IMG/VR virus record: IMGVR_UViG_3300010299_002864 | Location: 1 to 23,970 of that record | DNA: 23,970 nucleotides | Reading direction: 5' to 3' (one strand) | Source of the DNA: a virus | Part shown: positions 7,174 to 23,970 of the stretch, piece by piece | How the letters are laid out: the number at the start of each line of letters is the position of its first letter | Numbering within the stretch: position 1 is the stretch's first letter | Made by a program: the position numbers and the translations under genes | Notes under the pieces: generated by a model | What the model saw: the letters and a program-made list of their open reading frames with translations, nothing else | Databases searched by the model: none | What the model was told of the DNA's origin: nothing

Positions 7174-8769
7174 TTAAAACTCCAATACAATTTTAATGTC
7201 TTCCTTTTGGTTGGCAGATCTCGGAATAGGTTGTCTATTATCCAAGTAAATAACATCCCCAGATTTTTTGTTATACTCAGCAGTAGAAATTCCAGATACG
7301 AAATCTTGACCTAACTGGTATATTCTATTATTTATTGTGGTAGTTACACCACTAAATCCAGAATTAATTTGCAAAGTTGGTCCAACAATAGATGAACAAT
7401 TGATGGTCAATCCATATCCAACGTCTGGAGTTGCAGTAAAAGGAATAATTTTAAATCCAGTTTCACTTGAAGCCAGTCCTGTTGGTTGATAGTACTTTAA
7501 TACTCCGGTTATTGGATCCCAGGATGCAACATATCCAATCGCAGTAGACCCCAAACCAACGGTTTGTTTGATAACCGAATCAACACCATAAGTTGTGTTT
7601 GTTGTAACACCGGCCAGTTTCAATGCATTTAATCCACTAACAACCGAAGCATCTAAAACTTGAACATCACTACCAACAATAGTAGGATTCTTCAATATTC
7701 CCACTCTAGCAAAATCATTACCTAAAATAATATCAGGATTGCTCTCCAAAGTTTCATATCTTGAATATAAGAGGACTCTGTATGCACCAAGTTCTCTATA
7801 AACGTCATATCCATGTCCACCTTTTGGTGGAATAATAACGTTAAATGATGATATGGACGTTGTACCAATTCCAGTATTACTCAACTGACTTAGTGGACCA
7901 TTAATTTCCGACCCTGGAGCTCCAGGATAGAATTGTATGGTTCCATAAGTATATCCTTTACCACCGTCCGTAACAAAAATTTCAGATACTTTACCAAAAG
8001 AATCGATCGTAATAGTAGCTTTTCCACCAGATCCATCTCCCAAAATTGGAACATTTGAAAAAGACGTAGAGATTGGCTGATAATTTGCACCTCTATTATT
8101 AACCAAAACGACTTCTATTTTCCCATCAACCGCATTATTTTTTGTTGCGATTGACTCTCCAGATTCCCCCCAACTATCTGGAACTGGAATGTACTCAATA
8201 GAGTCAAATTTTACAATCTCTGATGGTTTAATAGTATAAAGATATTTCCAAATATATCCGTCACCACTTGCACCCGCAGCTCTTGCCTCTAGATCAATAA
8301 ATGTAGGTTGGTCGAAAGATGGTCTTCCTTTAGGATTTTCTGGGTCAGTTCCATTCTGCAGACAAACATAAACTCTCAAGTCCTCGTTTATGACATAATA
8401 ATTTGCTTCATAAAGTCCAGTCTGAGAAGTAACTGGAGTTACATTAAAAACATTATAGTCATGTCTATACATTTCATAAGTATTTCCAGCCACCCAATTT
8501 ACCTTTCTAACCAGTCTCCGTACATCTTGATTTGTTATCTGTTTCAAAGATATAATACTTTCTTTAACTTGGTACTCTTCCCTAAATCCATCAACAGGAG
8601 ATGGAGTATTGGAAGACCAAGTTGGAGATCCACCAGCAGCCGAATCGTTGCTATTCGGAAGTCCGATGAAAGTATAATATTTGTTTGAAGTGTCACCTAC
8701 GCCAGAAACACTTTTGACAAAGTTTTCTGCATTCAGAATTCTGAATTGATCCGATATTATAGCGGGCAT
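7174..8769 (-). CDS. gp8: baseplate wedge subunit gp8
   Basis: T4-like gp8, which in T4 binds gp7 and gp10 as part of the wedge. Three stretches match T4 gp8 as I recall it. The N-terminal part has an aromatic YTFIGLPN strand, then PTWSSN (49-54) and RKVNW (88-92). The middle has VYVCLQNG (133-140), GDGYIWKYLYTIKP (169-182) and EYIPVP (192-197); T4 has GDGYVWEYLFEIPP and EYIVVP. The C-terminus GDVIYLDNRQPIPRSANQ (504-521), ending KEDIKIVLEF, parallels T4 GEMIYMENRPPI and EEINILFTF. Length is 531 residues against 334 in T4. The extra sequence seems to sit in two insertions: about 215-300, with GGKGY-type beta repeats, and about 370-490, with no recognised domain. The ATG at 8769 is the first in frame, 33 bases after the gp7-position stop, and no strong Shine-Dalgarno is present. 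An ACTAAATA box lies just upstream. Confidence 0.93.
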   Translation of the reverse strand: MPAIISDQFRILNAENFVKSVSGVGDTSNKYYTFIGLPNSNDSAAGGSPTWSSNTPSPVDGFREEYQVKESIISLKQITNQDVRRLVRKVNWVAGNTYEMYRHDYNVFNVTPVTSQTGLYEANYYVINEDLRVYVCLQNGTDPENPKGRPSFDQPTFIDLEARAAGASGDGYIWKYLYTIKPSEIVKFDSIEYIPVPDSWGESGESIATKNNAVDGKIEVVLVNNRGANYQPISTSFSNVPILGDGSGGKATITIDSFGKVSEIFVTDGGKGYTYGTIQFYPGAPGSEINGPLSQLSNTGIGTTSISSFNVIIPPKGGHGYDVYRELGAYRVLLYSRYETLESNPDIILGNDFARVGILKNPTIVGSDVQVLDASVVSGLNALKLAGVTTNTTYGVDSVIKQTVGLGSTAIGYVASWDPITGVLKYYQPTGLASSETGFKIIPFTATPDVGYGLTINCSSIVGPTLQINSGFSGVTTTINNRIYQLGQDFVSGISTAEYNKKSGDVIYLDNRQPIPRSANQKEDIKIVLEF

Positions 8770-8802: not shown

Positions 8803-11800
8803 TTATTGACTAACTACAGTTCTTGTTCTTAAAACTTTTGGAGATGTAGATAATCCGGTAATTCCATTGTCAATGAATACATCAAATGTTTGTGGATCGC
8901 CCAAGATTCTATTTTGATAATCATAGATCTTTGCCCAACTATATCTTCCATAGAATCCACCAGTATTAACTCCAGTATCATTTTCACCTCTAGGCCAGAC
9001 CTGTACATAATTATCAATCATAGGAGCAAAATTACATGTTACCGTAACAATGCCGATCGAAGGTGTCGTAACATCTTCTACTCTATAAACTCCATCTAAG
9101 AACTGTGTAGCAACCCCGACAACGGAATCTGGATAACTTGACATTCCCCCAAGAAGTGTTGAAATTCCAATCAGATTTCCACCAGTTTCAACGTTACTAT
9201 CTGTAATGACAAAATAATCACCCTTGGATAATTGACTATTCGTAACTCCTAAAACATTGAGTGATGAATATCCAATACCTAGAGTACTATTATCATATTG
9301 TTCAGATTTCAAGGTAAAGGAAATTTTTGGAGAAGTTGTTCCAATTCCAGGTGTTCCACTAATGTAAGTTTGAATACCAATAATAATTCCAAAATCACCA
9401 ACTACTTTAAAAGATTTTACAGTTTCAGTCTTATAAGTATCAAGTTCAACTATAGCTGGAGGTGGATTATTTGGATCATAACCAAAACCAGGATTATCAA
9501 CTTCTATAGAAGTAACAACTCCATTGGTTACTGATGAGATTGCAGTGGCTCTATTGAGAACTGGTTCTGCATACATTGCTGTAGCACCGACTCCAACAAT
9601 AACATACCTGCCATCAGAACCGAGACTATCTTCAAACACAAAGTCATTTATATAATTGGATTGGTTTGTAGATCTATAAATCCAATCAGACAGATCAAAT
9701 GAATAGTATACATCACCATTGGAAACAGTAGCGACGTAGAATCCATAACTGTAATAAACATTGGTAATATCAAGAGTTCCCAAATTATTTGCAATAATTT
9801 CATATGTATCTCTTGTGAGATTACGTAAAACCTTTCCATTATTACCAACAGCCACAAATCTTCCATCAGCATAGATTACTTTATTCAAGTTAGTGGAAAC
9901 TGGGGAAGATGCATTTTCCCAAATTGCACCATTGTTAGAAGTTCTAATAACTCCATCCGCGCCGACTGCGACAAAATATTCTGCACCAAATGCAACACTG
10001 TTGAGATCAGAAAGAGTAGATGAGAATCTATTGATAAATGCGTCGGTGGTTACTCCAGTAGCAACAAATATGGATCCTGCAGCTCCAACAGCTACCCAAC
10101 TATCAGTAACGCTGGAATATACAATTTGATTAAATGTTCCAGTATATCCACTGCCCACTTGATTAATAACACCAAACCCAGGAAGAGCAACATCTTCCTT
10201 CAAAGGAATTTGTTCCCAAACTGAAGTGGAGGTATTATAGTCTGTTGCTTTTACAATTTTACCGAGACTACCAACAGAAACTAATAAATTACTTGTACCA
10301 ATACCAACAGACTCAATAGAATTGAAATCTATACTCTGAGTTTGGCCAAAACCAACTGTGCCGATTTGCCAATCTATTCCATCATAACTTGTTGCATAAA
10401 CAGCATTGGCTCCAACAGCAACAAATCTATCATTGAATTTCAAAGAATTTAAAGAATATGTTGTGGTCAAACCAGTAGAACCCTTCCAATTGAAAATTGG
10501 ATCTTTTTGATTGATAGATGACTCGGAAATAATAACTTTTGGAGATAACGTATTTGCATATCCAACTCCACCATTTGTAATATTAATAGTAGAAACTGTG
10601 GATGAAGTGGCAACTACGGTCTCAGTAAGACACTGTTCAACTGTTTTATTCTCTAAAATTAAAATGTCTCTAATATCTTCAGAAAGTTTATCAATATCCG
10701 TAAACAGTGGGTATGCATTATCAACATAGATTGATGTGTCATCTGGTAGAATCTTTTTAATTACTGTAGCAAAAGGTTTAACGCCACTCTGCAAACTTGG
10801 TCTAGACTTAGAATAAAGTGTTCCACTGATAACAGTGTCACTAAGTTGTTTCTTCCATGTCAGTGGTCTTACTCTTGTTGGATCGGTAATAATACCAACA
10901 GAATAATAATTGAAAGTTTCTAATTGATCCGAAGTAACAATCTTTTTAACAACTCTATCAAATTGTGAAATATCATAAGGATCTAGTGGATTTTCCTGAA
11001 TAACAATATTATCACCTGGTTTAATTGTTTTTGGTGGATCGATCAATTCAACGTCAACTGAAGATCCTCTATAGTAAAGGATAACACACTTTGATCCAGC
11101 TTTTGGAGCCTCAGTAAAAGTTATTCTACTTCCAGAGAACGAATATGATGTACCGGGAACTTGTAACACATCATTAATATAGATGAAGATGTTATTAGTT
11201 ATATCTAAGTCAGTTCCATCTGGAACTTTAAGTCCTATAACAGTTCTTACTCCATTAAGTGTGGTTGCAAGTGTAAACTTTTTCCTAAATCCATTAAAGA
11301 ATGTAGAAATATCATCAAACTGTATAAACTGACCTGGATAGAAACCAGCAAATGTATCAGTTTGTACCTCTTCAACTGTCAAAATGAAAGGTTCATATTG
11401 TTTGAATGTTACTATTCCGCCTTGAGTATAATAGTGCGGTATTGTTGAAATAGAACCAGCTAAAACAGTAAACTCATTGGTAGATCCAATAGAAACTACT
11501 CTAAAGTCCCTAGCTCCATCAGTACTATCATCAGTATATCTTAAAACTCTTTGAACCGTTGGAACTTTCTTGGTATGTCCACCACCAGTGTAGTAGTGTA
11601 CGATAGTAGATATTCCAGCAAGAAACTCAAACTCTGTTGCACTATTAACTGCAGTAACAGTGAAAGTGTAACCATATTCCGAAGTACCATCTGGGAAAAT
11701 TGTTGTAGTTAGACCCACGTATTGTGAATCGCAAGTAAACGCAAGTCCAGCTAAAGTTACTTTATCTCCAACTGCAAACTCATGATTTGTAGATGTTGTC

Positions 11801-14800
11801 ACAGTTGATAGTCCAGTGACCTCATAGTAAGAGAATGTAGTAATTCCAATCTCAGACCATCCTTCAAATATATGTGGAATTGTAGAAACTCCAGCATTCA
11901 TAGTGAAAGTAGTAGAACTTATAGAAGTTAGAACTGGGAATACTCTTCCATAAGAAGATGTGCCATCTGGGAAGATTGTTGTTGTAACACCTGCATGTTC
12001 TGCAGCACAAGAGAAAGGTAAGTTGAATAGGAATACTTCATCACTAGTTTGATTTGCAGGTACATCATCTCGTAATAATCCATGAGGAGAATAAGTAACA
12101 ACTGTACAAATTCCACTAGCCTCATCATAAGAGAAGGTTTGAATACCGACTTCATCATAACCACAAGTAAATGCTATACCAGTGAGAGTTACAAGATCAT
12201 CTTCACTAAGATTGTGAACAGAATCTGTAGTAATGGTAGTGAGTCCGGTTGTGTTATTATATAAAACGTTAGAAATATTTAAAGAATCATATCTAATTGA
12301 GGTATTCGTGTATATTCCCACTGGAGTAAGTTTATCTCCAAGTTTGTATCCAAGACCTGGGCGATCAAATTTAAAGTTTATGACACTGGATCCCATACCG
12401 ATCTGAACAGAAAGTCTTGCATCCTGACCAACACCAGACGATCCATCAGCATAATCAAGTGATAGAGCGCTATATCCAGTAGGCAAACCAATTGCTGCGA
12501 CTGGTAGGGAAGTTGTTGTGTATCCACTTCCCGCATTTACAACAGTATATCCCGTGATTGTTCCACCAGCACCGACAGTAGCGGTAATACTAGCACCAGT
12601 TCCAATAGTAGATGCAATACTTACTACTGGAGCACTTCTATAACCAGAACCGCCCCCAGTAACAACAACATCACTGATTGTTCCAGCAGCAGAAACAACT
12701 ACAGTAGCCGCGGCACCAATTAATGGTATGTAACCAAAACTGGTGGAAATAGAGACTTTCGATATTCTTCCAGCGTTTGGAGTACCACTTAAGAACCTCA
12801 GAACATTTGTTCCACTACCATCTACAGTATAATCAACAGATGGGTTTTGGAAAACATTGTTTATTAGAACTATTGGATTGTTACTAATTTCTGTAGAATT
12901 ATTAACATCATTGAAAACTGTATTTGTTGTTTGATTATTAGATTTTAAAGTAAATTCTGTTGCTGCAATACCAGTAAATGACAATGATATGTCATCGAAT
13001 AGAATATTCTTATCCTCTGGAGTACCGGCATCAAATCTTCTACTAAAAGCTCTGCCACCAAATATAGATCCAGTTTCCAATCCAACAGGACCTATTTGAC
13101 CATATGGAGCAGTATCAAAATAAATTATATCTCCAATAATATTGAAACTACCGTTTAATACTGTAGCCGCCGCGCCAATAGTATGTGCAGCTGCAACTGT
13201 TCCAAAGTAACCTCTCTCAACTTCCACATGATTTTCTGAAGAAACTCCAATTTTTTTAATTGAAACAAGTTCATTATCAAGATTAATGATATCACGAACA
13301 TTTAATGAAGAAATTCCAGAAGCAATACTCAATATGTCTGTGGAGGCCGTAGAAACACTTGATGCAAGAACAACTTCAAGAGATTTTCTCGATAGTGGTT
13401 TTTGGATTACACCATCAATTGTTATCATTACGCTAGCATTTGGATCCTTATATTCCAAAGAATGTGTTGCTGTTCCAACTCCAGTTAAATTCAAAAATAC
13501 ACTAGTTGATAATCCAGAAAGTTTAAATTGATTATCATTTAGTTTAAATACAAAAAGGTTGGCTGGTAAAGAATCTGTACCAAGTTCAAGTGGTCTAAAG
13601 GATAAATCATCATTAGAACCAGATCCACCAATATAAGTACCAGCAATTGAGATTACTGAATTGGAATCATATCCAGATCCACCATTTAAAACATCGACCG
13701 AAGCAATTTCCCCATCATTATTTCTAAACACATTGAAAGTGGCTCCAGTTGCATCCGAAGAAGGAACTTCAGAATAACTTTGATTAGCTTCTGCATCCAG
13801 TACTGTTGGACCTGTTGCAGAAACCACAAAACTCAAATCATTTGTTGGAGTTGTTCCTCCCATGTATGTACCTGCGATAGATACAGTTTCTCCAATCGAA
13901 TATCCACTTCCACCCTTAATTAGAGTTATCGATGTTGAAAGTGGTTGTCCAGTAGATACACTATATGTGATTGTAACGTTAAATTCCGCACCAGTTCCAG
14001 TTGTTCCATTACCAACAGTTTGAACATATTGTTTAAAAGATGGTCCAACAGGAGACAATACTGTGGACACACCAGTTATAGAAGTTGTTAAAGCGCCTGC
14101 ATATCCATTTTCTAATACTGACGTTCCATCAAAATCATAAACATTCAACAGACTATCAACAGGTCCAGAAACGTATGAAGTGGTTGCAATTCCAATAGGA
14201 CTTCCATTTGAATAAGAGTAAATCAACTCTTGACCTGACTGGAAATTGTGGTTGGGAATAGTGAACGTATCAGTTGTGACATCAATACTAGAACTAGTAA
14301 ATTCATGTTTGAATAAAGAAATTCCTTTATTTTTTAACTTAAAGGTTGTTAATCCAACAACTGCACCACCCCTTGTCAATGATGGGAATGTTAAATCTGG
14401 TGCAAAATTTGTACCCAATCCAATAATTGTAGTTATAATTCCGACATAGTTGCCAAGAGATGATCTAACATCTGCACAATCTGCAGTTCCGTAGAATTCT
14501 GTTGGGATTCCGGCAAGACTACTATTTCCTATAGCAACTGTTAAAATTCCAACCAAAGTATCAATGTTGGTTTGGACATCTGCACAAGAAGATGGATCTG
14601 TGTTAAATCCTGTCAGTGGATCAGCTGTAATTGTGAGATCCTTGGAATACAACTGATTTGTAACAGCATCTTTCATGTATCCTCTTGAACTTTCAAAAAC
14701 ATAAATCGATTCAGATTCTTCACCAAGAAGTCCATTCGTCAAAGCAACACCAACACCATCAAAGTACTTTTTAGTATTGTATATTGTATGTTGATTAGTT

Positions 14801-17800
14801 CCATATGATAAGTCTTGAGCTACGCCATCAATAATATATCCCAAATCACGGAAACACTTATTACCCCCTGTCGTATAAGTACCCACATTAAGGACTGGCA
14901 GCGTTGCCGTGGACCCCAGAGAAATGATTGAGGTAATGACACCCACCAGACTTACAATGTTAAATTGAACGTCACTACAGGCGTTAGAATCGGTGTTAGA
15001 GACTGTTGTTCCTACACCATAAGTAGGAGGACCATCAGTAACGGTCAAATCTTGAATAGAAAGTCCATTTCTGACTGCACTTCTCATCAAATCCCTGGAC
15101 TGAACAAATCCATAGAGAGATTCGGACTGACCACCAGTTAAACTACCAGGAATGATGATGTCATTATTGAAATACGAAGCAGTAAACTCTCTGGAATAAG
15201 CATTACCGCCTGTGAATATATCAACGGAAACTGCATCAATAAATTTACCCAAATCCGATTTATATTGGGAAGTTACAGTAGAAAGTCCAGGATAAACTGA
15301 AAGACTGTTAGAATAAGAAGTATCAATAATTTCTTGTCTGTTTACCTGAATCAGTCGGTAACCATCATAATACCTGGATCTTTCATTAGTCTGATTATCT
15401 CCAGGGAAGTAAAAATCTGGGAACCCAATAGCAACAGATGCGAGAGATCTATCCTGAATTTCTCTCTTATTAGCTAGAATGAGATCTCTAGAGTCTTTAT
15501 ATCTATTAACGTTATTATTAAGAGGATCTGGAGTTACAGTAAAATTAAACTGTTGTTGTACAGATGATTGATATAAGGTTGGTGGAGTCTGATTATTGAT
15601 TACATATTGTCCAATAAACTTGACATAGTTGTATGCAAATAAAGTTTCTTCAGTTTCATTCGTAACATATGAAGAACCAGCATCCCAATATGCCAAACCA
15701 GCCTCAACAGACTTATTGTTTGAATTATACTTAAGATCGTGTGAAACAGCATCAACTATAAAACCAGTATCTCTGAGACACTTTTCTTTGCTGTAAGTTG
15801 TACTTAGTCCAATATTTGGATAGTTAAATTCAACAAAAGCAACTACCTCTTCTTTAATAAATTCTCTATTTAAATCTAATAAATCTGAAGCGTCTGCATA
15901 TCTACCTCTCAGATATTGTTCGGAAGTTCCATTAAATTGATCGGAAATATCATCAATGTTTAGAACCTTGTTAGTTCTGTTCATTATGTAAGCTTCTAGA
16001 TCAACTCCCTCATCAAAATAAACATTTTGTGTTGAACCATTTTCCAACAATTCTTCTTCATAAACTCTAGCAAAGTTCTTCCTAACACTCATAGAAATAA
16101 CTTCATCAACATTTAAGAAAGTGAACGAATCTGAAACCGCAAGTTTTGGTTTCATGTTCACAGATCTAGCAATTCCAACATTAACTTCATTTTGAGTTGG
16201 GCTAGTAACAATCTCCAGATCAGAAAACTCTTTAAATCCTGATGGGTGTACAATTGATCTTACAGATTCCCTCCACTTATCATATGGAACACCACCTTTA
16301 ATGGAATATGAGAACTTTTGATAATAGAAGTTATCTGATATTCTTTGAGAATATTCATTTAAAATACCAGAAGAGAGGTCCACCGAAGCAGTCTTATCTC
16401 TAGAAACACCGAGGGTTGCAAATAAGTTAAATTTATCAAAGTATTCTACAGTACCAGTAATCTTAGATGTTTCTCCATAAATTTTATCACCTACTGTTAT
16501 ATCTCCAGAAACATTCTTCAATCTCATTTGGTTGAGTCTACCGTCCCAACCCCTCTCCATAATTCTACCAGAAAATCTTGGTGACGTAACAACCTCATTT
16601 GATGCATAATTTACATCATCCTTTAAGATCATCTCAAAAACAGGCATGTCATTCTTATTGATCACTGTGCCCAAATTAAATTCATCACTATAGTCACCAA
16701 AAGTACCGGTAGATATGCCAGTCATATCATAAGTGACTGTATTATTAATAGAACTTATTCCAGTAACTGTAAAAAACGCATAGTCATATGAAGAAGAATT
16801 GAAATTAGCACGACCAAGAGCTCTTGTCTCATCTGTAAGTCTGCAATTTTCAACAAATATCTCGTCACCGACATTAAAGGGATATACGAAGTCGGTGCTG
16901 CCAAATCCTGTTGGTATAAATGGTGTCAGACCTGCAACGTTTGATAATTCCAGAGTTATCGAATTACCTACGACACTTATATTATCAATTTCATATCCAT
17001 TTGAATTGAATATTGTTATTACTTCAAGAGGTTTGGCTATTGAAGTAGAATTTTTATTAATAGTTACATTGGTTACAGATCCACCAGAAATAACTGCACC
17101 GAGTTCAATATCAAGATCATTATTTTTTACAAGCAATTTCGGTGGACTATTATATCTTCTGCCACCTGTTGTTATTCCAATGTAATCTATAGTTCTTATG
17201 TCTTTAACTCCAAGAACAGTAGGAACACTCAAAGATGGTGAAAGTGTTGGGTCAGTTGGATAATCAAATCCATCCTTCACTCTTGTGAAAGTTTCAACTC
17301 TACCAATATTTGGAGATATGAGTTTTACAACTGCGTTTGTTCCTCTTTCACTTTTAACTTCCCTAACTCTAGGAACTTTATTAAATCCTCTTCCTGGGAA
17401 GTTGATTTTTAATTTAGATATAGGTCCTAATGCACTGTGTGATGTAGTTTTATATGAGAAAGTTGTTAAATTTTGAGTTAGAATTTGATTTTCAATGAAT
17501 GTTGGTTTTTTATCACTAAAGAATGTAAAAGATTTATCGGAAACACTAGTAAGTTTGAATCTAGAGTTAAGTCTATGATTTACTATACTAATTTTATTAT
17601 GCGATAAAACGTCAATATCTGTTGATATTTGATTCTTACTCTGTTCTGAAGTTCCCTTAGTGAATAATCCATAATAAATTGGGAAGAATTGAGAAGAAAG
17701 ATCTAAAATAATCTTAGCTCCAGGATCTCCTGGAATACCTTCTCTTTCTACAAAGAAACCAGTTCTTTCATTAATTTTTTCGACAAAATTTACATCAAAA

Positions 17801-20800
17801 TAGAATTGCAAATCAAGACTACTAAGACTTGAATCTGATACATCAAATTCTATCTTTGTAGTTCTTATACAGGTAATCTGTGGATTTACGAAGTGTAATT
17901 TTTGATCAACTCCACCAATAGAAGTGAAATTAATGAAATTTGAATCTTCTATATCACTTCTGTATTTGCATAATTTTATAGTATTTGGATCGGTTCTTAG
18001 AACATAATATGTTGAATAATTTTCAAGTCCATTAATAGGATATGCAGATATATAAAGTACCTTATCACCAGTTACTATATTGCCAGTATATGAAGAAACA
18101 TCAATAGAACTATCAGATAAAGAAACATCAGAGTCTGAGAAAGCAACTTCTCTCATCAAAACTTTTCTGTTTACTGGATCAAAGAAAACTTTTACAACTT
18201 CGTTATAATCAGTGCTGACATTAAACAGAATTTCATCCCCAACTTGAAGATTATGGTTGGAAGTTGTGGTTACTATTCCCGAAGATTTTTCTAAGGTTGC
18301 AGTGATCTTTGGATTAATCGTTGTTAATGAATGAGCTGCACCAATTACTCCCGAAAAATCTTCTTGGTCCCAGAATTCCACAGAGTTATTGTTAGTTCCT
18401 ATACCATTAGTTGATGAAGTTGTAAATCCAACAGTTGATAATCCAATAAAATCCCTACCTAGGTTTACAGCGTAAACCGTTTGATCATCTTCCAGTTGAA
18501 TGGATTGTGCAACACCTACATTATTGACATATAGAGATGTCCCAGCAAAACCAGATCCAGAATTATATTTTAATGGTTGTCCTGTATAGAATTTATGACC
18601 GGGTAAATATATACTTCTTGGTGGTATAAGTTTCATTTCGGTAGTACTATTCCCAAAACCGACAACTGTTCTAAATGATCCAGTGCTACCAATACCTACA
18701 TCACTCTTTGGATCGAAGAACGTGGTATAGTTTTTAATAACATAATCCGTTACATTTCCGGTGGGGATAGAAAATTCTCTTGGCAAGAGATTCACATTGC
18801 CACCAGATATGGTATGAATTCCTGTATTTTCGAGTCTATTTACATGGAATCCAGATCTCTGGAAATCTATTTTGGTAATTAACAGTTTTTCTGTTCCAAT
18901 TCCAATAAAATCATTAACCTGGAAACCATTAACGTCCTTTACTTTGATGAAAGTAAATTTAGTAGTTGTAGCTTCGTCAGCAATATCTTCTGACAGTTCA
19001 ACTTCCTTATTTTTGACCTCTACAATCTGAACTCCTTCAAAAGCAGATGAAGTAATAGTAGAAATTCCAGTGATTGTTATTGGTTGTCCGTTATCGATTC
19101 CATGGGGACCAGACGTTCTTATAACAGTATTTGGAGTTCTTATATTAAATTCAGCGTTCTGTATTTTCTCCTGAACGACTGTAAAAGCGTCCACTTCTCT
19201 ACCGTCCAACTCACTTACAACAATATTTGGTTGAACACCGCCAGAACCCGTTATATCAACGTCTACGGGATCATTTACTTTGTAGTTATCTCCACTGGAG
19301 AATATAGACACATCTTCAATTTTACCAGAGTTTATAGCTGTTACAGAAAACTCCTGTTTATACTCTTCTAGAACTGTTTCGATTAAATCATAAGATGAAC
19401 TGGATCTGTTAAGATAATATGGTCCAATATTTCTGGTTAACGTCGTATCAAAAACATTAAAGTCTTGATTGAATCCTGGTAAGAAGTTTTCTTCTACTGG
19501 TTTGTTGTAGAAATATGGGCCAACAACATATGGATATTTTGGAGTAGATTCATTTGATGCACTAACATCTATCGTTGAAAAATATGCATATACTCCATTA
19601 GGGTACTCCGGAGTTATTGCAAATCTGCCATTATGAATGTCTAGGTCACCAGAACCATCATACTTATAATCATTAACAAAGAATCCCCCCTCAAAAGAAG
19701 GTGGTCTCTTACCACTAGTGGTATCAACATCTAAAACATACCCAGGATTCATCCTTCTTATAAATCCACCAGTTGTTGTATTATATGCATATGGTCCATA
19801 AATTGGATTACCATCGTAAGCATAACCCAAGATAGGAGAATGATTTAGTGTTCCAGTATTTTCTTTATTATTTTCGGTAAAGTTGTCAGATAATTGATAT
19901 CTTAAGTTCTTAGGAACATAAAAAGAAATAAACTGTAGTCCCAAATCGGTATTTTTACTGGAATATAGTATTCCATCATCATCTTTATTAATGACATCTT
20001 TACTTTTAAATATCTGGTTTATCTTCCATTCAGTTACATTGGCCAAGAACTTGGCATTTTGTCCCCTATTTTTTAACGTTAATGTGGTATTTGATGATGC
20101 ATATCCAACTCCACCAAAAACAATATTAACAGCTTGAATAGATCCATCTGATATAATTGGTTCTAATTGTGCAAAATTTCCAACTCCATCTACCAATATT
20201 TGGCAATTTTTTCTAAATCCTTTACCCCTGTTAATAATCTGAACATCTACAATTGACCCTTCAATAATAATTGGTTTTAAAATAGCATTAGAAGTTATAC
20301 TGGAAACACCAACATCCGGTCTTCTATGAAAATTAACAATATTAGTACAACCAAATCCAATTCCACCATCTTCAATATAAACATCATCAATAGATCCCAA
20401 CACAATAGGAATTAATTCAGAATTAATTATTGTGGTAGCTCCAGTTCCAGACTTTGATTCTACTTTTATTTCAATAGGTGGATATCCAAAAATATGAGTT
20501 CCTACTCCTAAAGATTCAAATTTGACAAATTTATTTTTATCATAATTTTCAGAACTTAATTGAGTACTAACTCCAGCATTATAAAGTCTAAATCTATTAT
20601 TATCTACTACCTTTACTTGATAGTATGAAGATGTCGATAATCCACTTATAGGAGTATCGGATGATTGATAAATTACATATTCTTCATTGGAGAATCCATG
20701 ATTTCTGGCATAAACATAAGAATCAAAAGTATTAATGCCAGAAACGTTATTTGCAGAAAGAAGTGAAGGAACTTTCACCTTTCTATTGGAATAACCTCTT

Positions 20801-23511
20801 CCCGGATCTTTAACATAAATTTTGGTAAAAGTATTTTTATTTTTTAAGGTTGTTATAAAGTGAAATCCAGAAGACACCCCAACAATGTCAATTTCATTTT
20901 CCTTACGAAGAGCATCTTGTTGGGTATTGAATAATTTAATTTTATTATCAGTCAGAATTCCAACAAAGTATGTTGAACTATCTACAATTCCAGGAAGGTT
21001 TTGGTTCTTATTGGAATCATATATAACTTCCTCTCCATCTTCGAATGGAATAGTGGTCAAAAACTGTATGGTATTACCTATGGTTTCAACGTTTAAATCT
21101 GCCTTAAAACCAGCGGAAACTCTAGTACTAACAAAGTTTGACTCTAAAGCACAACCTACTCCATTACCACCGGTTATCGTTACTTTTGGCTTTTCTTGAT
21201 AACCATATCCGGCATTTAATATATTAACTTCTCTGACCGTGCCACTTAGATTTAAATGTGCCTTTACAGAGTTTCCAGTTTCATCTCGTACTTCTATAGG
21301 TGGTGATTCAATAACATCATATTCTTCACCTGGATTAGTGACCTCAATAGAAGATAGTCCACCATAGTAAATATTTTCGTCAAACAAAGTTGGTGATAAT
21401 ACTTCAACACCATTTATCAACATTCCAACTTCTCTATTAAAAGTTGTCCTTTCGTTTAAATCATCAAATAGAGACTTGGAAGTTTTAAATGGGAATTTTT
21501 TTAATAACTTCTGGTGTTTTAGACTTTTTCCCTCATATCCAGATTTATAGAAAATATCACCTGATATTCCCGGATTAACATTAATATACTTTTCGGAAAA
21601 AATATCAGATTTACTATATGACAATTTTATATTATTTTTATCAACTCTTGTTGCATAATAAAGTCCAGTAGAAAGTCCAGAACTATTAGAAGTATTATCA
21701 TAATATAATACTTCTCCACTTAAATAATTATGATCTGGAATATTAAAAGTATCTGTAGAAGCTGAACCAGCGTTAGTTATTCCAATTTTCTTATTATCAG
21801 TTGAGAAAACTGTATAGTTTGGTAATCCAGAAGATGTTACATAGAAAAATTTCTCATCAGAATCAATATAAGTGTTTTGGACTCCTGCTGAAATGTTTCC
21901 AAGATCTTGGAAATAATTACTATAGTGATTTACTTTGTAAATTCTTTTCCTCAATATAGATGATTCCAAAACAGTAAATGATCCAGGATTCAACACCTGA
22001 ATCAGAACTGTATTTGCATATTTTTTAATTAAGTCTGAAGCAGAATATTCTACATCAATAATTTTAGCCTGTGTATTGTTATTAGAAGAATCTACTAAAA
22101 GAATTTCTTCCCCAACATAAAAATAAACTTTATCAAATAATTGAACTCTATATTTTGTACTATCAACCTGAGATATTACTTGAATATTGTGATTAGTTGG
22201 TAAATTATACATCCAACTATTAAATTCATATTCATCAAATAAATCTCTACCAAACCCAGACAGAGAAATAGAATCCCCCACTCTTAGATTAGAAGTTTTT
22301 GAAAAATCGATACTATCAATTACATTGACAACTCTAAATTCTACCTTAGATGTATTTCCTACACCAATGTAACTAAAAGCAAATTTTTCCTCAGTCAAAT
22401 CTAAACCAAAGTCTAAAGGTTTAGATACATTTGTGACTCCAGTAAACTGATTTATATTTTTTCCAGTATAGTTTATTGTAATATAGTCAGAATTTCGTGG
22501 TTTTACTATAATTGATCCAGAATTAGCAAATCCAACTGTAGAGTCAACTAAAATATTATCATCATTTTGCGAAACACTTTCCAAAATTCTAGTTTTACCA
22601 GATACTTCAAAATTGCCACTAAATGAAGTACTATCTAGAGAAATTTCATAAAAATTCTTATTAGCAACAGGTCTATATTCCACATTGAAAATAGAAGCAC
22701 TTACAGTTCCAATACCAGCTATGTTCTGGAACAAAAAGTTACCTTTGGTGTCTATTGGATCACCACCAGAGATTTTTTCTACAAGAATATTTTTTGTAAT
22801 AAAGTATGAGTTAGAAGATGGAGTTAAAGTATAGTCCTGTGGTTTGATTATCTCAATATCGGAACCATATAAAATTTTGAAGAGTAGTTTATATGACTGA
22901 TCTGTTCCCTTAGATGAATATAAATCCTTGATTTTATAGGCTATATTTTCTACAGAAATATTTTCATAAAAATCTCTGGACTCAAATCCTGGTAAAAATT
23001 CATACTTGAATTTTTCAAAAAACTCAACTAAAAATAAATTACTTAAATTAGAAACTACAGCTCCACTTAAATGTTCTTCGGTATTAGTAGATGTAAATAC
23101 AGCAAATTCTGGGTTATCTAATGCTCTTAGATTTTCAATTCCACTAAATCCTCTTATACAATTATTAAAAGATGTCTCAGTTTTAGAAGTATATGTGATG
23201 ATTTCGTTGTTTATCTTCAATAAACCATAGGTATCAGGCCAACCTTTTGTTGAGGTTACGTTTATTGATGTATCAAAACTCAGAACGTCAGAAGTTAGTG
23301 AAGTTTCTTCAATTAAGTCGATATTATTGAACTTTTTAGTATTTTTATACTTAGTTATGTTCGAAATAATGTCAATAGAACCCGATTGGCTCTCCATTGA
23401 CTTATAATACTGTTCAAGAAACTCTACAAGAAGAGGTGATTCTACAGATAGAAACTCTGGAATTTGTGATTCTAGGATAGAACCAATTTTTACCCTTTTA
23501 ATTTCTGACAT
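8803..23511 (-). CDS. gp7: giant gp7-position baseplate wedge protein, 4902 residues
   Basis: One uninterrupted frame of 4902 residues, about 540 kDa, between gp6-like and gp8 genes, the slot of T4 gp7 (wedge initiator, 1032 residues). Layout by residue: 1-245, a partly helical head with IPEFLSVESPLLVEFLEQYY (18-37) and LYSSKGTDQSYKLLFKILYG, resembling the start of other cyanophage baseplate proteins; about 250-1200, beta-rich with GGxGY hairpins; 1218-1337, a YHYH-like domain; 1340-2500, more beta modules; about 2520-3030, alpha-helical repeats with CxDV and GYIIDGVAQDL motifs; 3172-3307, a 55-residue duplication; 3600-3680, paired GGSGY units; 3755-4030, about 100-residue repeats with TTTIFPDGTS; 4337-4650, a likely seven-bladed propeller; 4890-4902, the tail SPKVLRTRTVVSQ. 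No signal peptide or membrane segment is seen. Start ATG at 23511 is one base past the gp6 stop. The gp7 label rests on synteny; a fibre-like adhesin carried in the same slot is the alternative. Confidence 0.8.
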   Translation of the reverse strand: MSEIKRVKIGSILESQIPEFLSVESPLLVEFLEQYYKSMESQSGSIDIISNITKYKNTKKFNNIDLIEETSLTSDVLSFDTSINVTSTKGWPDTYGLLKINNEIITYTSKTETSFNNCIRGFSGIENLRALDNPEFAVFTSTNTEEHLSGAVVSNLSNLFLVEFFEKFKYEFLPGFESRDFYENISVENIAYKIKDLYSSKGTDQSYKLLFKILYGSDIEIIKPQDYTLTPSSNSYFITKNILVEKISGGDPIDTKGNFLFQNIAGIGTVSASIFNVEYRPVANKNFYEISLDSTSFSGNFEVSGKTRILESVSQNDDNILVDSTVGFANSGSIIVKPRNSDYITINYTGKNINQFTGVTNVSKPLDFGLDLTEEKFAFSYIGVGNTSKVEFRVVNVIDSIDFSKTSNLRVGDSISLSGFGRDLFDEYEFNSWMYNLPTNHNIQVISQVDSTKYRVQLFDKVYFYVGEEILLVDSSNNNTQAKIIDVEYSASDLIKKYANTVLIQVLNPGSFTVLESSILRKRIYKVNHYSNYFQDLGNISAGVQNTYIDSDEKFFYVTSSGLPNYTVFSTDNKKIGITNAGSASTDTFNIPDHNYLSGEVLYYDNTSNSSGLSTGLYYATRVDKNNIKLSYSKSDIFSEKYINVNPGISGDIFYKSGYEGKSLKHQKLLKKFPFKTSKSLFDDLNERTTFNREVGMLINGVEVLSPTLFDENIYYGGLSSIEVTNPGEEYDVIESPPIEVRDETGNSVKAHLNLSGTVREVNILNAGYGYQEKPKVTITGGNGVGCALESNFVSTRVSAGFKADLNVETIGNTIQFLTTIPFEDGEEVIYDSNKNQNLPGIVDSSTYFVGILTDNKIKLFNTQQDALRKENEIDIVGVSSGFHFITTLKNKNTFTKIYVKDPGRGYSNRKVKVPSLLSANNVSGINTFDSYVYARNHGFSNEEYVIYQSSDTPISGLSTSSYYQVKVVDNNRFRLYNAGVSTQLSSENYDKNKFVKFESLGVGTHIFGYPPIEIKVESKSGTGATTIINSELIPIVLGSIDDVYIEDGGIGFGCTNIVNFHRRPDVGVSSITSNAILKPIIIEGSIVDVQIINRGKGFRKNCQILVDGVGNFAQLEPIISDGSIQAVNIVFGGVGYASSNTTLTLKNRGQNAKFLANVTEWKINQIFKSKDVINKDDDGILYSSKNTDLGLQFISFYVPKNLRYQLSDNFTENNKENTGTLNHSPILGYAYDGNPIYGPYAYNTTTGGFIRRMNPGYVLDVDTTSGKRPPSFEGGFFVNDYKYDGSGDLDIHNGRFAITPEYPNGVYAYFSTIDVSASNESTPKYPYVVGPYFYNKPVEENFLPGFNQDFNVFDTTLTRNIGPYYLNRSSSSYDLIETVLEEYKQEFSVTAINSGKIEDVSIFSSGDNYKVNDPVDVDITGSGGVQPNIVVSELDGREVDAFTVVQEKIQNAEFNIRTPNTVIRTSGPHGIDNGQPITITGISTITSSAFEGVQIVEVKNKEVELSEDIADEATTTKFTFIKVKDVNGFQVNDFIGIGTEKLLITKIDFQRSGFHVNRLENTGIHTISGGNVNLLPREFSIPTGNVTDYVIKNYTTFFDPKSDVGIGSTGSFRTVVGFGNSTTEMKLIPPRSIYLPGHKFYTGQPLKYNSGSGFAGTSLYVNNVGVAQSIQLEDDQTVYAVNLGRDFIGLSTVGFTTSSTNGIGTNNNSVEFWDQEDFSGVIGAAHSLTTINPKITATLEKSSGIVTTTSNHNLQVGDEILFNVSTDYNEVVKVFFDPVNRKVLMREVAFSDSDVSLSDSSIDVSSYTGNIVTGDKVLYISAYPINGLENYSTYYVLRTDPNTIKLCKYRSDIEDSNFINFTSIGGVDQKLHFVNPQITCIRTTKIEFDVSDSSLSSLDLQFYFDVNFVEKINERTGFFVEREGIPGDPGAKIILDLSSQFFPIYYGLFTKGTSEQSKNQISTDIDVLSHNKISIVNHRLNSRFKLTSVSDKSFTFFSDKKPTFIENQILTQNLTTFSYKTTSHSALGPISKLKINFPGRGFNKVPRVREVKSERGTNAVVKLISPNIGRVETFTRVKDGFDYPTDPTLSPSLSVPTVLGVKDIRTIDYIGITTGGRRYNSPPKLLVKNNDLDIELGAVISGGSVTNVTINKNSTSIAKPLEVITIFNSNGYEIDNISVVGNSITLELSNVAGLTPFIPTGFGSTDFVYPFNVGDEIFVENCRLTDETRALGRANFNSSSYDYAFFTVTGISSINNTVTYDMTGISTGTFGDYSDEFNLGTVINKNDMPVFEMILKDDVNYASNEVVTSPRFSGRIMERGWDGRLNQMRLKNVSGDITVGDKIYGETSKITGTVEYFDKFNLFATLGVSRDKTASVDLSSGILNEYSQRISDNFYYQKFSYSIKGGVPYDKWRESVRSIVHPSGFKEFSDLEIVTSPTQNEVNVGIARSVNMKPKLAVSDSFTFLNVDEVISMSVRKNFARVYEEELLENGSTQNVYFDEGVDLEAYIMNRTNKVLNIDDISDQFNGTSEQYLRGRYADASDLLDLNREFIKEEVVAFVEFNYPNIGLSTTYSKEKCLRDTGFIVDAVSHDLKYNSNNKSVEAGLAYWDAGSSYVTNETEETLFAYNYVKFIGQYVINNQTPPTLYQSSVQQQFNFTVTPDPLNNNVNRYKDSRDLILANKREIQDRSLASVAIGFPDFYFPGDNQTNERSRYYDGYRLIQVNRQEIIDTSYSNSLSVYPGLSTVTSQYKSDLGKFIDAVSVDIFTGGNAYSREFTASYFNNDIIIPGSLTGGQSESLYGFVQSRDLMRSAVRNGLSIQDLTVTDGPPTYGVGTTVSNTDSNACSDVQFNIVSLVGVITSIISLGSTATLPVLNVGTYTTGGNKCFRDLGYIIDGVAQDLSYGTNQHTIYNTKKYFDGVGVALTNGLLGEESESIYVFESSRGYMKDAVTNQLYSKDLTITADPLTGFNTDPSSCADVQTNIDTLVGILTVAIGNSSLAGIPTEFYGTADCADVRSSLGNYVGIITTIIGLGTNFAPDLTFPSLTRGGAVVGLTTFKLKNKGISLFKHEFTSSSIDVTTDTFTIPNHNFQSGQELIYSYSNGSPIGIATTSYVSGPVDSLLNVYDFDGTSVLENGYAGALTTSITGVSTVLSPVGPSFKQYVQTVGNGTTGTGAEFNVTITYSVSTGQPLSTSITLIKGGSGYSIGETVSIAGTYMGGTTPTNDLSFVVSATGPTVLDAEANQSYSEVPSSDATGATFNVFRNNDGEIASVDVLNGGSGYDSNSVISIAGTYIGGSGSNDDLSFRPLELGTDSLPANLFVFKLNDNQFKLSGLSTSVFLNLTGVGTATHSLEYKDPNASVMITIDGVIQKPLSRKSLEVVLASSVSTASTDILSIASGISSLNVRDIINLDNELVSIKKIGVSSENHVEVERGYFGTVAAAHTIGAAATVLNGSFNIIGDIIYFDTAPYGQIGPVGLETGSIFGGRAFSRRFDAGTPEDKNILFDDISLSFTGIAATEFTLKSNNQTTNTVFNDVNNSTEISNNPIVLINNVFQNPSVDYTVDGSGTNVLRFLSGTPNAGRISKVSISTSFGYIPLIGAAATVVVSAAGTISDVVVTGGGSGYRSAPVVSIASTIGTGASITATVGAGGTITGYTVVNAGSGYTTTSLPVAAIGLPTGYSALSLDYADGSSGVGQDARLSVQIGMGSSVINFKFDRPGLGYKLGDKLTPVGIYTNTSIRYDSLNISNVLYNNTTGLTTITTDSVHNLSEDDLVTLTGIAFTCGYDEVGIQTFSYDEASGICTVVTYSPHGLLRDDVPANQTSDEVFLFNLPFSCAAEHAGVTTTIFPDGTSSYGRVFPVLTSISSTTFTMNAGVSTIPHIFEGWSEIGITTFSYYEVTGLSTVTTSTNHEFAVGDKVTLAGLAFTCDSQYVGLTTTIFPDGTSEYGYTFTVTAVNSATEFEFLAGISTIVHYYTGGGHTKKVPTVQRVLRYTDDSTDGARDFRVVSIGSTNEFTVLAGSISTIPHYYTQGGIVTFKQYEPFILTVEEVQTDTFAGFYPGQFIQFDDISTFFNGFRKKFTLATTLNGVRTVIGLKVPDGTDLDITNNIFIYINDVLQVPGTSYSFSGSRITFTEAPKAGSKCVILYYRGSSVDVELIDPPKTIKPGDNIVIQENPLDPYDISQFDRVVKKIVTSDQLETFNYYSVGIITDPTRVRPLTWKKQLSDTVISGTLYSKSRPSLQSGVKPFATVIKKILPDDTSIYVDNAYPLFTDIDKLSEDIRDILILENKTVEQCLTETVVATSSTVSTINITNGGVGYANTLSPKVIISESSINQKDPIFNWKGSTGLTTTYSLNSLKFNDRFVAVGANAVYATSYDGIDWQIGTVGFGQTQSIDFNSIESVGIGTSNLLVSVGSLGKIVKATDYNTSTSVWEQIPLKEDVALPGFGVINQVGSGYTGTFNQIVYSSVTDSWVAVGAAGSIFVATGVTTDAFINRFSSTLSDLNSVAFGAEYFVAVGADGVIRTSNNGAIWENASSPVSTNLNKVIYADGRFVAVGNNGKVLRNLTRDTYEIIANNLGTLDITNVYYSYGFYVATVSNGDVYYSFDLSDWIYRSTNQSNYINDFVFEDSLGSDGRYVIVGVGATAMYAEPVLNRATAISSVTNGVVTSIEVDNPGFGYDPNNPPPAIVELDTYKTETVKSFKVVGDFGIIIGIQTYISGTPGIGTTSPKISFTLKSEQYDNSTLGIGYSSLNVLGVTNSQLSKGDYFVITDSNVETGGNLIGISTLLGGMSSYPDSVVGVATQFLDGVYRVEDVTTPSIGIVTVTCNFAPMIDNYVQVWPRGENDTGVNTGGFYGRYSWAKIYDYQNRILGDPQTFDVFIDNGITGLSTSPKVLRTRTVVSQ
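9561..10503 (-). other. probable seven-bladed beta-propeller in the giant wedge protein
   Basis: Encodes residues 4337-4650. Seven strand repeats of the form (F/Y/W)VAVG-x-x-G-x-(V/I) begin at residues 4363, 4409, 4472, 4513, 4552, 4591 and 4636. Several are followed by Asp-box-like turns: SYDGIDW (4375-4381), SNNGAIW (4525-4531) and SFDLSDW (4604-4610). Spacing is 39 to 63 residues. This resembles BNR/sialidase or Ycf48-type propellers; no catalytic residues can be assigned. Confidence 0.7.
11410..12250 (-). repeat. tandem ~100-residue repeats with TTTIFPDGTS motif
   Basis: Two near-complete copies lie at 12147-11848 and 11847-about 11569. Both start GI-x-TFSY-x-E and carry an FxC cysteine step, then TTTIFPDGTS-x-YG and an AG-x-STI-x-H ending. 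A truncated copy precedes them (LTTITTDSVHNLSEDDLVTL and TGIAFTC), and a decayed copy follows, ending AGSISTIPHYYTQGG. Copy 1 has an extra loop rich in D and N before its cysteine. Confidence 0.78.
13591..13998 (-). repeat. two-copy internal repeat ending SIAGTYxGG
   Basis: Copy 1 is 13998-13822 and copy 2 is 13752-13591 on the minus strand. Copy 1 runs from GTGAEFNV through GGSGYSIGETVSIAGTYMGG to NDLSFVV. Copy 2 runs from ATGATFNV through GGSGYDSNSVISIAGTYIGG to DDLSFRP. A spacer of about 23 residues separates them. The order of elements is identical, so this is a tandem duplication of one beta module. Confidence 0.78.
14400..15960 (-). repeat. alpha-helical repeat region of the giant wedge protein
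   Basis: Encodes residues about 2518-3038, which look mainly helical in an otherwise beta-rich protein. Three related segments align: CLRDTGFIVDAVSHDLKYN (C2578), SDLGKFIDAVSVDIFTGGN (D2753) and CFRDLGYIIDGVAQDLSYGT (C2886), each followed by an aromatic-rich helix such as YNTKKYFDG. Three shorter helices share C-x-D-V: CSDVQFNIVSLVGVITSII (C2845), CADVQTNIDTLVGILTVAIG (C2976) and CADVRSSLGNYVGIITTIIG (C3012). The copies are diverged and found by eye in protein, not DNA. Confidence 0.68.
19500..19860 (-). other. YHYH-like domain within the giant wedge protein
   Basis: Encodes residues about 1218-1337. The block contains HSPILGYAYDGNPIYGPYAY (from H1224), then DLDIHNGRFAITPEYPNGVY and YFSTID. 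This follows the HSPxxGxAxDGxPIYG ... DxxNGRxxxTxEYPxGxYHYF pattern of the YHYH protein family. The family's name motif reads Y-A-Y-F here (1308-1311), so its histidine is replaced by alanine. Function of this domain in phage baseplates is unknown to me. Confidence 0.72.
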
Positions 23512-23512
23512 T

Positions 23513-23970
23513 TTATCTCGTATACTTTCCGTTTAGGTAGCTAGATGTAGTTACATAATTTGTTGCAGAAGAATTTTCGCCAGAACTGACAACATCTTCT
23601 ACAATATTTACCACAGTATTTTGAACGTCCAATTGCAGATACAGATCCTGCAGTCCGATGATATCGTTCGATTCTGGTATTGCTTGGACCTCAACAAATC
23701 CATTGGTTAAAGAAGCAGATGTTATATTAACAACATCTAATCTTATTTCACCTCTAATATAATCAACAGTTCCTGCAATATTTTTCACATTTACAGGTAA
23801 ATTATTCACCAATTTAAAGAAGAAAATCGTACCTGTTTTTTTATCCGTAGAAGATGGTCTATCCGCCATATAAAGAGTTTCATTTACACCATCAATTGTA
23901 AATCCAGTAGATTTTATTGAATATCCAGAATCTCTAATATGTATTTGATTTCCAAAACAGAGTTCATAGG
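23513..23970 (-). CDS. gp6: baseplate wedge subunit gp6, C-terminal part only
   Basis: The 3' end of a gene that enters from the right edge. The frame is open from 23970 and ends with TAA at 23513-23515, giving 152 complete codons. A methionine at 23869 lies inside the frame, but 33 further open codons precede it, beginning YELCFGNQIHIRDSGYSIKS, so it is not the real start. The visible part is beta-rich, with GTIFFFKLVNN and GTVDYIRGEIRLDVVNI, and then a low-complexity tail ending SSYLNGKYTR. Position directly before the gp7-position and gp8 genes is that of T4 gene 6, whose product dimerises and ties neighbouring wedges together. The pattern G-x-V-D-Y-x-x-G-E-I fits my memory of the C-terminal part of T4-like gp6, but most of the protein lies outside the window, so the call depends largely on synteny. 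Confidence 0.72.
   Translation of the reverse strand, partial: YELCFGNQIHIRDSGYSIKSTGFTIDGVNETLYMADRPSSTDKKTGTIFFFKLVNNLPVNVKNIAGTVDYIRGEIRLDVVNITSASLTNGFVEVQAIPESNDIIGLQDLYLQLDVQNTVVNIVEDVVSSGENSSATNYVTTSSYLNGKYTR
23516..23520 (-). promoter_or_regulatory. possible ribosome binding site of the giant gene, inside the gp6 3' end
   Basis: The minus strand reads CGAGATAAAATG across the junction. The GAG core lies five bases before the ATG at 23511 and overlaps the last codons of the gp6-like gene; the gp6 stop TAA is separated from the ATG by one A. This layout suggests translational coupling. The match to the Shine-Dalgarno consensus is short. A GGAAAG further upstream is the other candidate. 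Confidence 0.35.

Follow-up and report, generated by a model that had tools for sequence, protein, structure and literature searches.

A giant open reading frame between gp6-type and gp8 genes

The sequence analyzed here (the window, 23,970 bases) is the entire contig of IMG/VR record IMGVR_UViG_3300010299_002864, a 24-kb fragment of an incomplete phage genome. The source is a marine T4-like phage of the Kyanoviridae, near Synechococcus phages S-SCSM2R and S-SSM7. The following genes were identified:

23513..23968, minus strand: gp6-type wedge protein, C-terminal end, open at the contig end (phrog_219 positions 475-596 of 598, E = 4e-18)
8803..23511, minus strand: giant gp7-type baseplate wedge protein, 4,902 aa, 534 kDa (phrog_2885 baseplate wedge subunit, 2261 bits)
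7174..8769, minus strand: gp8 baseplate wedge protein, 531 aa (phrog_438, E = 1e-156; Pfam Phage-Gp8)
1..7167, minus strand: large DUF4815 ('VrlC', phrog_358) virion protein, after gp8, open at the contig end (PF16075)

An earlier sequence-only reading of this DNA described a single 14.7-kb frame of 4902 codons that takes 61% of the window between gp6-like and gp8 genes, and our analysis bears this out. The open reading frame is intact, with an ATG start and no internal stops, covers 61.4% of the window, and has phrog_219 and phrog_438 members as its neighbors. The longest stop-free run was 4,909 codons, compared with 171 in 200 shuffles of the window. Its location between the gp6 C-terminus and gp8 is the gp7 slot; the order gp25-gp6-gp7-gp8 is that of annotated cyanophages, and gp6-gp7-gp8 is that of T4. 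The exceptional size claimed for this wedge protein was also evident (4,902 aa versus 1,032 for T4 gp7), although the calculated mass of 534.3 kDa is slightly lower than the 540 kDa given earlier. In a Pfam search of the window, PF16075 had no match in the giant protein, and the domain was confined to the separate ORF at 1-7167.

A contig from a different metagenome (L179) carries a frame of identical length (4,902 aa), with ~90% protein identity to the window protein. The dN/dS ratio between the two was 0.098 overall and ranged by region from 0.045 (N-terminal half of the gp7 core) to 0.127 (propeller-like repeats), both described below. These low values in every region indicate purifying selection across the whole giant frame.

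Two collinear segments match T4 gp7

The published record on gp7 of cyanophages is divided. gp7 was counted among the genes common to non-cyanophages, with gp7, gp10, and gp12 described as so divergent that they formed as many as nine clusters (Sullivan et al. 2010, PMC3037559), and it was stated to be absent from cyano- and pelagimyophages and apparently replaced by VrlC (Zaragoza-Solas et al. 2020, PMC7029224). We therefore examined gp7 homology by profile comparison. A T4-type gp7 profile was built from five phages (T4, RB49, LPCS28, P19, and F86), and the window protein was cut into 48 overlapping 220-aa profiles, each of which was aligned to it with hhalign. Only the profiles over residues 1-420 (scores 91, 77, and 61) and 2301-2620 (scores 50 and 40) were clearly above background, for which the median score was 16 and the next-best profile reached 28. 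The core and the features associated with it are as follows:

22603..23511, minus strand: gp7 core, N-terminal half (residues 1-303; residues 187-303 match T4 gp7 724-822)
23062..23346, minus strand: small beta domain within the N-terminal half (about residues 56-150; comparison with relatives)
16531..22602, minus strand: insert of ~2,024 residues, 224 kDa, splitting the core (residues 304-2327; from alignments of the core halves; T4 gap 104 aa)
19558..19860, minus strand: YHYH domain within the insert (residues 1218-1318; PF14240, E = 4e-21)
15892..16530, minus strand: gp7 core, C-terminal half (residues 2328-2540; residues 2328-2430 match T4 gp7 810-892)

The hhalign E-value for the N-terminal segment was 1.6e-11 (97% probability) and the profile E-value for the C-terminal segment was 8e-6, and the two segments are in the same order as in T4. 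The C-terminal half carries the motif YYQ-FSY-IK...W.E.V...HPSGF. The core totals ~516 residues, or ~10% of the window protein. Residues 1-1000 had been put forward as the region in which to seek gp7; this proposal needs correction, as the core lies in two blocks ~2,000 residues apart and a fused module makes up the final ~2,360 residues. Plain BLAST and phmmer searches of the window protein against T4 gp7 or PDB returned essentially only a short motif at residues 190-222, and profiles were needed to detect the remainder. The phrog_2885 profile matched the window protein in six stretches, the best of which spanned residues 5-2530.

No window segment scored above background against the N-terminal domains of T4 gp7 (residues 1-640) in the sliding-profile comparison. 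Since the slot and the core are retained without these domains, we do not regard them as diagnostic of the wider family.

Fourteen whole records were then searched with core profiles built from the window, IMG/VR contigs, and a small number of cultured phages. Both core halves were found, in order, in one gp7-slot ORF per record in 14 of 14. Profile A4 includes the C-terminal cores of Melnitz and HTVC008M, profile A3 includes S-SM2, P-SSM2, and S-SSM7, and both include IMG/VR contigs of the searched clade, so matches in these phages and contigs are by construction. T4, phiM19, DLP6, S-H34, P-HM2, Syn9, and S-SZBM1 are in neither profile. Weaker extra matches of the N-terminal profile, in Syn9 and record G019, involved the small beta domain alone. 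Across the whole T4 genome (168.9 kb), the core profiles matched gene 7 only, at residues 725-757 (N-terminal profile, E = 2e-8) and 862-890 (C-terminal profile); taken alone, the latter match is short and modest (29 residues, E = 0.003 genome-wide). A separate second gp7, which the sequence-only reading had named as evidence against its assignment, was looked for and not found in the 14 genomes; for the window's own, incomplete genome the search extends to the 24-kb fragment. These profile comparisons indicate that the giant window protein is the gp7 of its phage, in agreement with that assignment.

A long insert divides the core at a fixed point

The insertion point corresponds to T4 gp7 residue ~815. 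At the short end, the gap between the core halves was 104 aa in T4, 339 in DLP6, 360 in Melnitz, 493 in HTVC008M, 808 in phiM19, and 1,589 in S-H34. Cyanophage values included ~2,113 (records G015 and G019), 2,130 (S-SCSM2R), 2,154 (S-SSM7), 2,186 (S-SM2), and 2,200 aa (P-SSM2), and the largest were 2,324 (P-HM2) and 2,687 aa (Syn9); all values were taken from match coordinates. The N-terminal core of Syn9 (L098) and S-SZBM1 (L212) is itself broken by a further ~510 residues, which constitutes a second insertion site. This spacing series and the second site show the core to be a small constant frame that carries inserts at fixed places.

The window protein and T4 gp7 (PDB 5IV5 and 5HX2; 1,032 residues) share the core (~724-892 in T4 numbering) and the gene order gp6-gp7-gp8, and they differ in what surrounds the core. 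The first ~640 residues of T4 gp7 have no detectable counterpart in the window, the stretch between the halves is 104 aa in T4 and ~2,100 in the window, and the stretch after the core is 142 aa in T4 and ~2,370 in the window. The short gp7 proteins of Methylophilales phage Melnitz (896 aa), Pelagibacter phage HTVC008M (1,016 aa), and Sinorhizobium phage phiM19 (1,007 aa) also have both core halves in order and in the same slot, with an insert of 360-810 aa and without a fused extension, whereas the insert of the window protein is far longer and its extension is fused.

The small beta domain of the N-terminal half is absent from the DLP6 and phiM19 gp7 proteins, in which the flanking helical segments adjoin (in phiM19, model positions 8-40 and 141-220 are contiguous). 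A second copy of this domain (model positions ~62-118) was observed a short distance beyond the first, at window positions 22435-22617, residues ~299-359, and also in several relatives. Separate YHYH-domain genes occupy the same slot in S-SZBM1 and Syn9.

The C-terminal extension is fused or separate and carries swappable cassettes

Comparison with relatives divided the remainder of the protein into the following parts:

8806..15891, minus strand: C-terminal extension (residues 2541-4902), ~2,360 aa, 252 kDa; relatives have a homologous stand-alone gene
14497..15654, minus strand: exchangeable cassette 1 (residues ~2620-3005), with repeats of tail-fibre type (phrog_4527 short tail fibre, E = 9e-82)
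12301..14496, minus strand: constant part of the extension (residues 3006-3737; comparison with relatives)
11407..12300, minus strand: exchangeable cassette 2 (residues ~3738-4035; phrog_17885 tail fibre protein, E = 3e-34)
10612..11406, minus strand: most conserved domain of the extension (residues 4036-4300; comparison with relatives)
9583..10611, minus strand: tentative beta-propeller-like repeats (residues 4301-4643), five of VAVG..G type (repeat pattern; Pfam beta-propeller E = 0.005, below cut-off)

Seven related contigs (L195-L197 and L199-L202) encode the extension as a gene of its own. In these, gp7 is 2,730-2,790 aa long, its end lying no more than a few hundred residues beyond the C-terminal core, and the next gene, encoding 900-1,650 aa, lies a few bases away or overlaps. 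The profile of one such separate extension protein (902 aa) aligned with window residues 3051-4251 (hhalign E = 1e-55). Other arrangements were found in L190, where gp7 is 2,628 aa long and is separated from the extension by several genes, and in S-SSM7, where the extension itself is interrupted at window residue ~3423 and a gp9/10 N-terminal-domain gene lies between the pieces. Mapping the fused and split states on a gp8 tree gave at least four changes, or three without the doubtful contig L183. In this close relative of the window (L183:8116-8212), a frameshift at window residue ~2703 yields products of 2,725 and 2,212 aa, either through a sequencing error or through a recent natural split. 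In S-H34, HTVC008M, and phiM19, no extension was detected in the protein that occupies the slot, and it thus seems dispensable for a wedge.

Within the window's own clade, whose members are 55-90% alike over the rest of the protein, some relatives have the cassettes, and others lack them or have different sequence in their place. Searches with the propeller-like region gave nothing significant in PDB or NCBIfam, and its Pfam matches were sub-threshold only.

In S-SSM7 (L001:18615-19637), Syn9 (L098:23018-24238), S-SZBM1 (L212:16111-17607), and Melnitz (L007:9328-10212), gp7 is followed by a small gene that encodes the N-terminal domain of T4 gp9/10 (PF07880). The window has no PF07880 gene between gp7 and gp8.

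Structure prediction for a short relative

The window protein exceeds the length that can be folded in one piece, and the distance between its core halves is too great, so a naturally short relative was folded instead. AlphaFold was applied to a Melnitz-type gp7 of 896 aa with an alignment of 40 sequences. The model had a pLDDT of 52; confidence was lowest in the helical core segments and highest in the beta insert (~238-400 and ~457-606). When this low-confidence model was compared with 350,542 PDB chains, the top two matches were 5iv5_BJ (E = 4e-4) and 9f4a_A0 (E = 1e-3), followed by a third at 0.014. We read these two as the T4 and KP1 gp7 chains from their lengths of 1,004 and 1,031, both PDB entries being known to hold gp7. 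Global TM-scores were low (0.08), as expected for loosely placed domains. A tentative likeness to the gp7 fold, proposed as a check by the sequence-only reading, was seen in the short relative; these matches to T4-type gp7-length chains support the assignment at the level of a predicted model and do not prove it.

An AlphaFold model of the extension (pLDDT 52) had no significant match in PDB, and among viral models it matched, for the most part, fragments of other cyanophage wedge initiators and of tail proteins. A PDB sequence search found no structure of a giant gp7.

Virion data for related proteins

S-SZBM1_208 (6,619 aa, 724 kDa), which we found to have both gp7 core halves, was detected by 71 peptides from purified virions by mass spectrometry, and no long tail fibres were seen in S-SZBM1 by electron microscopy (PMC9146016). 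ORF122 of S-CREM2 (1,937 aa), located between two wedge genes, was represented by 91 unique peptides (PMC10665884); from its size and position, it would be equivalent to the S-H34 gp7.

Proposed arrangement and alternatives

The T4 baseplate contains six monomeric copies of gp7; the protein contacts gp6, gp8, gp9, and gp10 and has a domain that swings through ~45 degrees at the baseplate switch (PMC3004832). In other contractile injection systems, the gp7-like part is a hotspot of re-engineering and mediates fibre contacts (PMC8894135). The gp7-like part of the AlgoCIS protein Alg12, a known system from the same study, is likened to the window protein here by description rather than by sequence.

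We consider it very likely that the window protein is a gp7 whose core is split by the ~2,024-residue insert and followed by the ~2,360-residue fused extension, with the core in the wedge and the arms outward. By homology with T4 and related injection systems, the two core halves would meet and join two gp6 chains in the wedge. The insert and extension would extend from each wedge toward the outside as strings of beta domains, and, as the fibre-type cassettes and the cited analogies suggest, these arms may touch the host or dock fibres. In this arrangement, the receptor-facing part and the wedge part involved in the contraction switch would be one polypeptide, with outer domains exchanged as cassettes. 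The external arms or skirt suggested earlier, the six copies, and the figure of over 3 MDa per baseplate would follow by analogy with T4 only. A further step, which is possible although we hold it to be doubtful, is that the wedge protein has taken over host recognition, with receptor-binding cassettes in gp7, six (or more) per baseplate, replacing separate long tail fibres. If so, the sensor and part of the contraction switch would be a single polypeptide.

The protein may instead be a gp7 that is cleaved once made, with gp7 and the extension then functioning as two distinct virion proteins, as they would in the split relatives. Several relatives encode the extension on its own, and a covalent link is therefore unneeded; however, LC-MS reported a relative as one 6,619-aa entry (PMC9146016), albeit with a peptide list compatible with cutting. 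We judge such cutting to be unlikely. Considerably less probable is that a tail-fibre or adhesin giant simply sits in the gp7 slot while VrlC (DUF4815) performs the true gp7 function. Much of the window protein does resemble the fibre families phrog_4527 and phrog_17885, and VrlC has been called the replacement for an absent gp7 (PMC7029224). Against this, the core halves occur in order and are together in no other ORF of the 14 genomes, the C-terminal core was never matched in any VrlC gene, and the pelagimyophage reference HTVC008M has the same core in its gp6-gp8 slot. The collinear gp7 core thus largely refutes this explanation.

It is more improbable still that the extension corresponds to T4 gp10, fused here, or to some other known wedge protein of T4. 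gp10 is the partner that gp7 meets first and precedes gp7 in ordered T4 wedge assembly (PMC3004832), and gp9/10 N-terminal-domain genes lie beside gp7 in S-SSM7, Syn9, S-SZBM1, and Melnitz. However, the profile of the separate extension protein gave nothing against T4 gp6 to gp12 (all E above 0.1), and the gp9/10-type genes are distinct from the extension because both coexist in S-SSM7. Finally, an assembly chimera or erroneous join of two genes, a kind of error or change that the L183 frameshift shows to occur, has a negligible chance of being correct and was rejected because L179 has the same 4,902-aa frame with an overall dN/dS of 0.098 and similar fused frames occur in many other contigs and isolates.

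Relation to published annotations

Giant cyanophage gp7 proteins have been annotated for years, which limits the surprise of the present one. Proteins annotated as gp7 or 'baseplate wedge initiator' measure 4,156 (S-SM2), 4,454 (P-HM2), 5,172 (S-SCSM2R), and 5,195 aa (P-SSM2), and gp7-slot proteins measure 6,076 (Syn9), 6,619 (S-SZBM1), and 3,007 plus 3,001 aa (S-SSM7). The window protein shares its slot with the phrog_2885 giants and is collinear with those compared over residues 1-2530 (30-52% identity); the constant parts of the extension are also homologous, whereas the cassettes and the length differ. We found no description of a split gp7 core or of extension fusion in the open-licence literature. 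As far as that literature shows, the new elements are the two-part core with its fixed insertion point, which all genomes examined possess, and an extension that has been joined to gp7 or split from it.

The two-part core, found in one ORF in each of the 14 genomes, contradicts the published absence of gp7 (PMC7029224). The comparisons suggest a route by which a small wedge protein may grow to 500-700 kDa, namely insertion at a fixed point, fusion with a neighbor, and exchange of outer cassettes. The ~516-residue core would be the piece to seek in a cyanophage baseplate map.

Annotation of short relatives can also obscure the core. I899_gp055 of HTVC008M (L006:9436-12486) is annotated 'head closure Hc2', the name of phrog_3465, yet it lies in the gp6-gp8 slot and holds both gp7 core halves. 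The Hc2 name probably stems from shared glycine-rich beta repeats.
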